The notes under the pieces were generated by a model. The model searched no databases and had not been told where the DNA came from. It saw nothing but the letters and a program-made list of their open reading frames with translations. Shown piece by piece: positions 14,209 to 24,783 of a stretch of DNA of 64,000 nt; positions within the stretch are counted from its first letter, which is position 1, and each line of letters opens with the position of its first letter. Where the stretch lies: the NCBI GenBank assembly GCA_027452205.1, contig DAIDGV010000024.1, positions 156,750-220,749 of the forward strand. Reading direction: 5' to 3'. The position numbers and the translations under genes are program-made. The stretch is from a candidate division FCPU426 bacterium. Its GTDB lineage: Bacteria; Oederibacteriota; Muellerivitia; Muellerivitales; Muellerivitaceae.

Positions 14209-14285
14209 GCGCCTGTAGCTCAACTGGATAGAGTATCTGACTACGGATCAGAGGGTTGAAGGTTCAAATCCTTCCAGGCGCACCA
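14209..14285 (+). tRNA. tRNA-Arg (ACG), CCA encoded
   Basis: A full cloverleaf: acceptor GCGCCTG / CAGGCGC, D-arm GCTC, anticodon stem TCTGA/TCAGA with loop CTACGGA (anticodon ACG at 14243-14245), T-loop TTCAAAT, discriminator A, encoded CCA. A34 of this tRNA is the classical substrate of TadA, whose gene follows 106 bases downstream. Confidence 0.97.
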
Positions 14286-14391
14286 TTTTTTCTGTGACCT
14301 ATTCGGCCCTGTGCCGAATAATGAACAAAGAGAATGGTACTGTGCCGATATCGGTGAAAGTTTTTATGGAGATCGGTACGCACCACTTTCT

Positions 14392-14853
14392 ATGACCCAT
14401 TCCCACGACAAGTTCATGCGAGAAGCTTTGAAAGAAGCGGCGAAAGCTTCGCTCAAAGGTGAAGTCCCCGTCGGTGCAGTGGTCGTCAAAGACGGTAAGG
14501 TCATTGGCCGCGGTCATAACCTGACCGAAAGTAAGCAAAGCGCCCTGACCCACGCGGAACTGATGGCGATCGCTAAAGCCGCGAAAAAGCTGAAAAGTTG
14601 GCGGTTGAACGATTGTGATTTATACGTGACCTTGGAGCCCTGCACGATGTGCGGCGGCGCCATTGTGTTATCAAGGATCCGGAACCTGGTCTACGGGACC
14701 ACGGACCCCAAAGCAGGGGCGGTACACAGTACGGCCCGCGTGATGGAAAACCCGAAGCTGAACCACAGAGTGACTGTGACCAGCGGCATATTAAAAGAAG
14801 AATGTTCGAAAGTTTTGACCGACTTCTTCAAGGAAGTCCGGCGAAAGAAGTAG
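14392..14853 (+). CDS. tadA: tRNA-specific adenosine(34) deaminase
   Basis: 153 residues from the ATG at 14392. It is a cytidine-deaminase-fold enzyme converting A34 to inosine in tRNA-Arg(ACG). The zinc site is complete: H54 and proton-shuttling E56 (HAE), then C84 and C87 (PCTMC). The substrate-binding phrases VPVGAVVVKDG and YGTTDPKAGA are present. The ribosome site is weak and upstream in-frame extension is possible but not family-like. The gene is sandwiched between tRNA-Arg(ACG), its substrate, and tRNA-Ala(CGC), probably in one transcript that ends at the terminator at 14945. Confidence 0.95.
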   Translation: MTHSHDKFMREALKEAAKASLKGEVPVGAVVVKDGKVIGRGHNLTESKQSALTHAELMAIAKAAKKLKSWRLNDCDLYVTLEPCTMCGGAIVLSRIRNLVYGTTDPKAGAVHSTARVMENPKLNHRVTVTSGILKEECSKVLTDFFKEVRRKK

Positions 14854-14860
14854 GTTATGT

Positions 14861-14936
14861 GGGGACGTAGCTCAGTTGGGAGAGCGTCTCGTTCGCAACG
14901 AGAAGGTCGGCGGTTCGATCCCGCTCGTCTCCACCA
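14861..14936 (+). tRNA. tRNA-Ala (CGC), CCA encoded
   Basis: Acceptor GGGGACG / CGTCTCC, D-arm GCTC-AGTTGGGA-GAGC, anticodon stem TCTCG/CGAGA with loop TTCGCAA (anticodon CGC at 14894-14896), T-loop TTCGATC, discriminator A, encoded CCA. It starts 7 bases after the tadA stop. Confidence 0.96.
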
Positions 14937-14944
14937 TATTTAGC

Positions 14945-14973
14945 GGCTCGCGCCCAGCGAGCCTTTGTTTTTT
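14945..14973 (+). terminator. intrinsic terminator after tRNA-Ala
   Basis: GGCTCGC / GCGAGCC stem (14945-14951 / 14957-14963), loop GCCCA, then TTTGTTTTTT. Confidence 0.9.
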
Positions 14974-14976
14974 AGT

Positions 14977-14997
14977 GGAGAGATGGCCGGTCGGTCG
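14977..14997 (+). pseudogene. 5' fragment of a tRNA-Ser duplicate
   Basis: GGAGAGATGGCCG-GT-CGGTCG matches the first 21 bases of the intact tRNA-Ser at 15093 at 19 of 21 positions (AG replaced by GT), then the match stops. It covers the acceptor 5' strand and part of the D-arm only, so it cannot be functional. It could be a relic of duplication or of an element that used the tRNA as a target. Confidence 0.6.
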
Positions 14998-15012
14998 CCG
15001 CCCCAAAGGGCG

Positions 15013-15055
15013 GAACGAAAGACCCCATCAAGAACTGATAGGTTTTCTTTCGTTC
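15013..15055. repeat. 10-bp perfect inverted repeat between tRNA-Ser fragment and tRNA-Ser
   Basis: GAACGAAAGA (15013-15022) and TCTTTCGTTC (15046-15055) are perfectly complementary with a 23-base interior. Immediately before it, CCGCCC-CAAA-GGGCGG (14998-15013) forms a second hairpin. No T-run follows, so it is not a clear terminator. Confidence 0.55.
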
Positions 15056-15092
15056 AGGCGCACGCCGAACGGATCAAGATCAGCGGACAGCG

Positions 15093-15183
15093 GGAGAGAT
15101 GGCCGAGCGGTCGAAGGCGCACGCCTGGAAAGCGTGTAGGCTCCAAAAGGGTCTCAAGGGTTCGAATCCCTTTCTCTCCGCCA
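15093..15183 (+). tRNA. tRNA-Ser (GGA), long variable arm, CCA encoded
   Basis: Acceptor GGAGAGA / TCTCTCC, anticodon loop CTGGAAA (GGA), extended variable arm typical of class II tRNAs, T-loop TTCGAAT, discriminator G, encoded CCA. About 91 nt. A partial copy of its 5' end lies 116 bases upstream. Confidence 0.96.
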
Positions 15184-15340: not shown

Positions 15341-15460
15341 GCTTTGGCGTGAGGGTCGGGTCCTATACGACGGATCGGCCCCAACTCCGCTAGGTCCGGA
15401 AGGAAGCAACGGTCAGGTTGTATTCGGGTGTTGTAGGTCGCCTGGCCCTCACGGCAAAGC
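15341..15460 (+). ncRNA. ffs: signal recognition particle RNA (4.5S-type)
   Basis: The apical domain has the invariant AGGTCCGGAAGGAAGCAA with the GGAA tetraloop and asymmetric internal loop bound by Ffh. The closing helix is nearly perfect: GCTTTGGCGTGAGGG (15341-15355) against CCCTCACGGCAAAGC (15446-15460). Small bacterial form without an Alu domain. It pairs with Ffh for co-translational targeting. It sits just ahead of dnaX, as in several bacteria. The outermost base pairs may belong to flanking transcript. Confidence 0.93.
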
Positions 15461-24191: not shown

Positions 24192-24266
24192 TCCCCGGTA
24201 GCTCAATGGTGGAGCATGCGACTGTTAATCGCAGGGTTGTTGGTTCGAGTCCAACCCGGGGAGCCA
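24192..24266 (+). tRNA. tRNA-Asn (GTT), CCA encoded
   Basis: Acceptor TCCCCGG / CCGGGGA, D-arm GCTC/GAGC, anticodon stem TGCGA/TCGCA with loop CTGTTAA (GTT), T-arm GTTGG-TTCGAGT-CCAAC, discriminator G, encoded CCA. It is followed by a strong terminator and two tandem structured repeats. Confidence 0.96.
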
Positions 24267-24276
24267 TCAAAATAAA

Positions 24277-24310
24277 GGCCGTCCGCCCAAAGCGGACGGC
24301 CTTTTGTTTT
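24277..24310 (+). terminator. intrinsic terminator after tRNA-Asn
   Basis: Perfect 10-bp stem GGCCGTCCGC / GCGGACGGCC (24277-24286 / 24292-24301), five-base loop, then TTTTGTTTT. Confidence 0.93.
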
Positions 24311-24470
24311 ACGGTTTCGGAGTTGGATGAGAACCAAATGGGAAAGTCTGAAAACGGGAGTTTTCAGGCCGTTCAATGGGGTACATAGGGGGGCTTTCCC
24401 CTATGAGAGCGAAGCGACGGTTCGATGTTCAGCCGGGGAGCCTAAACGAAGCGATACCCGGGTGTGCCAT
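24302..24470 (+). ncRNA. structured repeat RNA, copy 1 (candidate new RNA class)
   Basis: A ~170-base unit starting TTTTGTTTTACG and repeated at 24476. Conserved blocks are GAACCAA-TGGGAA, ATGGGGTACA, GAGCGAAGCGACG, TTCGATGTTCA, CCGGGGAGCCTAAACGAA and CCCGGGT. Hairpin A is CTGAAAA / TTTTCAG (24348-24354 / 24361-24367) with loop CGGGAG. Hairpin B is CATAGGGG / CCCCTATG (24384-24391 / 24398-24405). A third pairing is CCGGG / CCCGG (24433-24437 / 24457-24461). Both hairpins are kept in copy 2 with changed sequences. The unit overlaps the tRNA-Asn terminator tail. No coding potential is apparent. Function unknown; the + orientation is assumed from the tRNA. Confidence 0.55.
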
Positions 24471-24475
24471 GTTTT

Positions 24476-24648
24476 TTTGTTTTACGCCTTACTGGCTTGG
24501 GCGAAGAACCAAGTGGGAAGGGTCCACGGGAAATGTGAGTTTCCCGTGATGTTTTGATGGGGTACACAGGGGTCTTTTCCCCTGTGGGAGCGAAGCGACG
24601 ATTCGATGTTCAACCGGGGAGCCTAAACGAAACGACCCCGGGTATGCC
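24476..24648 (+). ncRNA. structured repeat RNA, copy 2 (candidate new RNA class)
   Basis: Second ~170-base unit with the same order of blocks as copy 1. Hairpin A is CACGGGAAA / TTTCCCGTG (24525-24533 / 24540-24548) with loop TGTGAG: different bases from copy 1, yet again fully paired. Hairpin B is CACAGGGG / CCCCTGTG (24565-24572 / 24579-24586), a compensatory T-A to C-G exchange relative to copy 1. The third pairing, CCGGGG / CCCCGG (24614-24619 / 24636-24641), is one pair longer. A terminator-like hairpin follows at 24664. Confidence 0.55.
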
Positions 24649-24663
24649 TCGAACAAAAAGGGG

Positions 24664-24688
24664 CCCACACCTTGTGGGACGGCCTTTA
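24664..24688 (+). terminator. hairpin after the tandem structured repeats
   Basis: CCCACA / TGTGGG (24664-24669 / 24673-24678), then ACGGCC and TTTATATT. A weak T-run, but placed right where a transcript of the tandem repeats would end. Confidence 0.5.
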
Positions 24689-24783
24689 TATTCTCAAAAG
24701 CTCAATGGACTTAAAGCTATTTCACTGAAAAAGCACTATGTTAGATAGGAACAAGGTTCAAAATCCGTTGTGGAAAGCGGTTC

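Follow-up and report, generated by a model that had tools for sequence, protein, structure and literature searches.

Comparison with described systems

The T-loop is one of the crossover sites of tyrosine integrases that target tRNA genes. A regenerated target gene together with a displaced fragment of it is the signature of tRNA integration by these enzymes, and genomic islands targeted to tRNA and tmRNA genes have an intact regenerated 3' end and, on the far side, a displaced 3' fragment in the same orientation (PMC4383910). In a window of 64,000 nucleotides of DNA from a candidate division FCPU426 bacterium, we analysed two short tandem units behind a tRNA-Asn gene, which belong to an element family with this same layout; like the islands, the element uses the T-loop region, forms tandem arrays and has both tRNA and tmRNA genes among its targets. 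It differs from them in size (100-250 bp compared to >2 kb), in carrying neither an integrase nor any other gene, in containing an inverted copy of the target, and in being found also at terminators and at the ends of lpdA and nuoD. Since there is no integrase gene inside the element, it would have to be non-autonomous.

Three further systems come close. The attC sites of integrons, whose folding features have been described (PMC8946536), are imperfect palindromes of which a single strand folds into a stem, an unpaired spacer, a second stem and a variable hairpin head, and our element may fold in a similar way. In its case, however, the carrier genomes have no integron integrase, the head contains conserved motifs and the arms track the host gene. 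The boxes of attC have the consensus GTTRRRY / RYYYAAC; the element lacks them, and its arms read GGTTCRA or follow the local target sequence. REPINs and REP sequences (PMC3116915) are short, non-coding, dispersed hairpins with compensatory stems, mobility in trans and tandem clusters, whereas the element has, in addition, target-derived ends and duplicated gene ends, and two of its carrier genomes are without a Y1 transposase gene. SINE-like, target-primed retroelements share with it a precise one-sided junction and a target duplication of variable length, but several carriers are without reverse transcriptase, the element has neither poly(A) nor RNA polymerase III features, and it is bacterial. 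No matching element was found in the open-access literature searched, and we know of no described element with target-complementary arms that change at each site. The family was previously unlisted.

The tandem units behind tRNA-Asn

All features of the locus are given on the forward strand of the window. The host gene adjoining the elements is tRNA-Asn(GTT) (24192..24266; ARAGORN; Rfam RF00005), and its T-arm plus 3' acceptor strand (24242..24265) form the duplicated target segment, here called T (direct repeat family D2; 41-locus comparison). The intrinsic terminator of the gene (24274..24304) lies between T and the first element. The sequence-only reading had described two direct copies downstream, and these are indeed present, with 86% identity over 86 nt, a spacing of 181 bases, the blocks GGGGTACA, GAGCGAAGCGACG and GGGGAGCCTAAACGAA common to both, and cores that begin near 24326 and 24507.

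Copy 1 starts with an imperfect reverse complement of the tRNA-Asn T-arm, called iT (CGGAGTTGGATGAGAACC; 24318..24335; compare the 1326 copy of L014). This is followed by hairpin 1 (CTGAAAAC-GGGA-GTTTTCAG; 24348..24367), the GGGGTA motif with hairpin 2 (CATAGGGG..CCCCTATG; 24378..24405) and the mini-hairpin GAGCGAAGCGAC (24407..24418), which is the right end of the conserved core. Directly behind it lies T' (24419..24442), in which the 3' end of tRNA-Asn is duplicated in a displaced and decayed form; one base is inserted, as is usual in T' (GGTTCGA-T-GTTC). A nested second element follows as a remnant (TAAACGAAGCGA) with its own copy of the tRNA-Asn end (TACCCGGGTGTGCCATG; together 24443..24471; intact versions in L028 and L029). 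The duplicated block ends with TTTTGTTTTACG (24475..24486; direct repeat D4), which repeats the tail (24302-24313) of the terminator of tRNA-Asn. Copy 2 repeats this arrangement: iT (GGCTTGGGCGAAGAACC; 24494..24510; read from the sequence), hairpin 1 (CACGGGAAA-TGTGAG-TTTCCCGTG; 24525..24548), the GGGGTA motif with hairpin 2 (CACAGGGG..CCCCTGTG; 24559..24586), the mini-hairpin GGGAGCGAAGCGACG as right end of the core (24586..24600), and T' with the same nested-element remnant (24601..24648). Farthest out, the duplicated target block closes with a decayed copy of the tRNA-Asn terminator (24660..24692), detected as inverted repeat I2 between 24269-24284 and 24677-24692 (94%).

The paired changes reported from the first inspection were reproduced. 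Hairpin 1 differs fully between the copies and is paired in both (CTGAAAA-CGGGAG-TTTTCAG, 24348-24367, and CACGGGAAA-TGTGAG-TTTCCCGTG, 24525-24548), and in hairpin 2 both bases of a pair change, from T-A to C-G. As had been suspected, the segment 24242-24265 of tRNA-Asn (T-arm and acceptor) is repeated at 24419 (75%) and 24600 (71%); the two decayed repeats span 24419-24442 and 24601-24623. The description as two repeat units has to be refined, as the units are not clean: each T' carries a remnant of the second element (TAAACGAAGCGA and TAAACGAAACGA, respectively). The folding energy of a single copy is only mildly below that of shuffled sequences (z about -1.8 to -2.2). No Rfam family fits the units at gathering or relaxed thresholds; just the tRNA and chance matches were returned. 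Elsewhere in the window, a c-di-AMP riboswitch (RF00379) at 2637-2790 scored 63.5 bits, far over the gathering score, and a bacterial small SRP RNA (RF00169) lies at 15354-15450, near three tRNA genes (14209-15183).

A dispersed family with target-derived ends

Related genomes contain this structure at about 70 further places, so the observation in the window is beyond chance; the two units are old members of a dispersed, gene-less family of DNA elements in the FCPU426 phylum. The elements, of about 100-170 bases and within 100-250 bp, contain no ORF. A covariance model built from same-genome copies found 6 copies in the genome of the window and 3-11 in each of seven relatives of the same family, and a wider model found 6-24 copies per genome in 8 genomes of the same taxonomic family. 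The sequence-only reading had named such a small family with covariation, frequently beside tRNA genes, as the finding that would support it, and in this respect it is borne out. Other families of the phylum have longer relatives, which contain an additional hairpin and the motif GGGGTRACAGCG...GAGCGCC; a single genome accounts for 11 of these. The named records containing the core are mostly metagenome-assembled genomes of candidate division FCPU426; one is labelled Proteobacteria. The covariance models detected no element in 14 genomes outside the phylum, and neither the phage and plasmid collections nor, for the core pattern, the viral contigs gave a match; the loose long-form motif in 59 viral contigs was dismissed as chance, because the covariance model scored none of them. 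When split or autonomous copies were sought by pattern, no further places came up, and the neighbouring genes of the copies recur at orthologous loci only, without common cargo.

Every well-preserved copy has the order T, iT, hairpin 1, GGGGTA, in some copies an extra hairpin, hairpin 2, mini-hairpin and T', where T stands for the host gene's 3' end and T' for a second, displaced copy of it. The iT segment, 7-20 nt in length, is reverse-complementary to the beginning of T and usually matches the tRNA as an exact complement for 11-17 nt. T' begins with a few matching bases, continues with a mismatched or inserted block of 1-5 nt and is then identical, for 20 to more than 110 nt, through the acceptor into the trailer. 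In most copies at tRNA genes, iT and T' can pair around the block of 1-5 nt, which is not the case at lpdA of G006 or at L050. The core motifs GGGGTRACAGCG, GAGCGCC and GCGAAGCGACGG are more conserved than the hairpin heads of attC. Most targets are tRNA genes, which together cover at least 14 amino acids; the others are tmRNA, the ends of lpdA and nuoD, and intrinsic terminators (that of rplL in G000). A tRNA gene with the same orientation immediately precedes 19 of the 20 long forms and 22 of the 49 family copies. Tandem units are found at L050, L049, L060, L028 and L029 as well as in the window (W1/W2). Nested copies are common there and elsewhere, and the second element of the window is better preserved in L028 and L029.

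The dependence on the target was assessed against mismatched flanks. A flanking direct duplication with a score of at least 24 was present in 54% of the copies compared to 3.7% of mismatched flanks (p = 6e-13), and the complementarity of iT and T' was also above this control (p = 7e-7). The own tRNA was preferred over every tRNA of another isoacceptor by T' in 33 and by iT in 27 of 41 copies (Wilcoxon p = 4.5e-12). Since T' and iT track the local target and not a family consensus, the resemblance to tRNA-Asn in the window is a target duplication. The earlier suggestion that part of each unit derives from the adjacent tRNA therefore stands, while its other half, mimicry of the tRNA, is rejected: T' tracks whichever gene is local, protein genes and terminators included. 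A target duplication that changes with each insertion site indicates a mobile or integrative DNA element, and we regard this class assignment as very probable.

Two other repeats were encountered in the course of these searches. The R3 matches in G009 (L238, L249-L251) were set apart as a different repeat, having neither a tRNA nor T/T'. This repeat, CCTCAGCTTAGAACAGAGGCGGGGGTTTGGGGGCGAAGCACCCC...GGAACAGCGGAC..GTCCGC..GGTTTCCCTGAAAGC (L249:1501-1633, L251:1501-1635 and L238:1501-1633 on the forward strand, L250:1501-1634 on the reverse strand), is conserved and strongly structured, gave no Rfam match even at an E-value of 0.5, directly precedes a start codon in L250 and is possibly an unlisted riboswitch-like RNA. 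The other dispersed repeat, CCCTCACCCTAACCCTCTCCC...GGGAGAGGG, is present in the same genomes as the element (L067, L070, L071, L062, L066) and sometimes adjoins its group 2 copies.

Filled and empty sites

The 3' end of lpdA is filled in G000, G003 and G006 and empty in G001, G002, G004 and G005. The tmRNA copy is present in G000 only, with none at the tmRNA ends of the five relatives examined or of the outgroup G008. In the lpdA locus of the window's own genome (L116:2800-2980), the two 42-nt 3' ends differ at 10 of 14 third codon positions, at few others, and in their stop codons. As the differences between T and T' of lpdA in G000 are mostly at synonymous third positions (HPHPTLNEIFSFH and HPYPTLNEIFGLH), both ends were once coding; judged from this pattern, the present gene end appears to have replaced an older functional end that is now displaced. 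At the lpdA ends of L048 and L058, which come from two genera and look like independent copies, T has AAT and T' has AAC in both cases.

The cores group by target gene across genera, which implies that many copies are old and vertically inherited, in lineages tied to one target. Displaced 3' fragments of tRNA-Asp, from the anticodon loop on and each followed by a copy of the element, were seen in L033, L039 and L055. These fragments are the ends of genomic islands; the one in L055 comes straight after an integrase gene.

Covariation and base pairing

Over 24 loci, we counted 73 both-sided compensatory cells, compared to 27.8 in shuffles (0/500 reached this number), and slid controls were far lower. 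G-U pairs are tolerated under selection on RNA and are not favoured by single-stranded DNA sites or by the correction of palindromes. In the stems of the element, 6 of about 773 pairs (0.8%) are G-U, as opposed to 56 of 1269 (4.4%) in the tRNA stems of the same loci (Fisher p = 7.5e-7). Such nearly pure Watson-Crick stems are expected of DNA palindromes. Compensatory changes are also common in the hairpins of REPINs, which are mobile DNA (PMC3116915). No promoter-like site was detected inside the units, the sole one lying upstream of tRNA-Asn, and an intrinsic terminator parts the tRNA gene from the units. Given the scarcity of G-U pairs, the terminator, the missing internal promoter-like site and the covariation of REPINs, the claim that the paired changes are a mark of selection on RNA is not supported. 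Overall, the initial observation is confirmed and its interpretation partly supported, but RNA is not the reading that fits best.

Probable origin and mobility of the element

The signature of tRNA integration, together with the predicted attC-like fold of iT and T', favours a non-autonomous element that is recombined by an enzyme in trans, perhaps while folded as a single strand. Directly visible in the sequence are the target-dependent layout, the existence of both occupied and vacant sites, copies in tandem or nested in one another, and palindromes that are almost perfect. We consider it probable that the family is a miniature, gene-less, non-autonomous integrative DNA element and that the window holds two old tandem insertions of it behind tRNA-Asn. 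Insertion would leave the host gene with an intact 3' end (T), behind which lie the core and then the gene end once more (T'). The element may move or home as a folded single strand, in which iT would pair with the left part of T' through a mismatched block of 2-5 nt, resulting in an attC-like stem, unpaired spacer and stem under the hairpin head. A recombinase acting in trans might then join the element to the tRNA gene in its T-loop region, in the manner of integrases with tRNA targets; we propose this step only tentatively. Points against the integrative reading are the lack of a recombinase gene common to all carriers, the old, target-locked lineages, the stronger conservation of the core motifs compared to attC heads, and the fact that neither a move to a new target nor, within one species, a circle or an excised site was observed. 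It is possible, if somewhat doubtful, that the family represents a new class of gene-less mobile DNA without a fixed end, whose iT arm is at every site the exact antisense of the occupied gene. Such an element would copy, or be guided by, its target, insert at the T-loops of tRNAs and at other gene ends, and have the gene end rebuilt, with an as yet unrecognised enzyme of the FCPU426 phylum as its driver.

Reverse transcription offers another route to the same layout, in that a short structured RNA would be copied in a SINE-like manner at a nick in the tRNA T-loop, giving a precise right and a variable left junction and making T/T' a target-site duplication of 20-130 nt. The right junction is indeed fixed after the mini-hairpin, while the left one varies, contains filler and is often right behind the T-tract of a terminator. 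The duplicated blocks vary greatly in length and include identical non-coding trailers and terminators (L137, L244, L055), which keeps target-primed insertion alive as a rival. We nevertheless rate it as unlikely, given that RVT_1 is absent from G002, G004 and G006 despite fresh-looking copies there, that G-U pairs are nearly absent, and that the mismatched block in T' and the target-locked lineages would be left unexplained. That the units are a functional structured or cis-regulatory RNA behind tRNA genes, with iT perhaps acting as a guide or antisense to the tRNA, is quite improbable in our judgement. Such a role would fit the strong covariation, the conserved single-stranded motifs, the exact complementarity of iT to the tRNA, the retention of orthologous copies across genera and the perfect hairpins of the window amid decayed flanks. 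It does not agree with the terminator upstream, the lack of a promoter-like site inside, the G-U content (0.8% compared to 4.4% in tRNAs) or the variable presence of the lpdA copy, and a T' that duplicates ends of protein genes and terminators makes no sense for an RNA product.

Two further explanations appear much weaker. Without any dedicated mobility, replication slippage or template switching could duplicate hairpin-prone gene ends, with palindrome correction perfecting the stems. In favour of this, T and T' of one locus keep their likeness (L037, L055), there are tandem expansions, and foldback synthesis produces inverted copies of the iT kind. This process cannot disperse one core to many unrelated targets (tRNAs, tmRNA, lpdA, nuoD and terminators), and is thus very unlikely to account for the family. 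Least probable of all is that a Y1 (RAYT) transposase moves the family in the manner of REPINs or REP sequences. The palindromes are short and extragenic with compensatory stems, they form tandem clusters, a GGGGTAC foot precedes the hairpin, and Y1_Tnp genes are common in the phylum, all of which would suit this reading. No Y1_Tnp match exists, however, in G001 and G006, which have 22 and 12 copies, and Y1 transposition is not known to leave target duplications of 20-130 nt or target-complementary ends.

Taken as an integrative element, the family is a variant of miniature integrative elements and may be a new kind. It extends over a phylum and is far under the 2 kb limit of island finders. 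Covarying hairpins beside tRNA genes can thus be integrative DNA instead of regulatory RNA, which is a trap for RNA discovery pipelines. If iT truly acts in targeting, the element would be a compact, self-matching insertion system.

Search for a partner enzyme

No recombinase gene was common to all element-bearing genomes. An integron integrase was rejected as partner, as TIGR02249 stayed under the cut-off in 59 of 59 genomes. The same applied to reverse transcriptase as an obligate partner (RVT_1 absent in 5 of 8 family genomes: G000, G002, G004, G006 and G007), to Y1 transposase (no Y1_Tnp in G001 and G006 despite their copies) and to a family of tRNA-adjacent integrases, which is missing from G005, G007 and G013. 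The latter are tyrosine integrases of about 370 aa; their genes (L055:209-1327, L032:93-1205, L293, L294 and L288-L292) share the strand of a tRNA gene and stop 100-300 nt short of it, except that the one in L055 precedes the displaced tRNA-Asp 3' fragment rather than a tRNA gene. At four loci, a copy of the element comes after the gene of such a tRNA-adjacent integrase.
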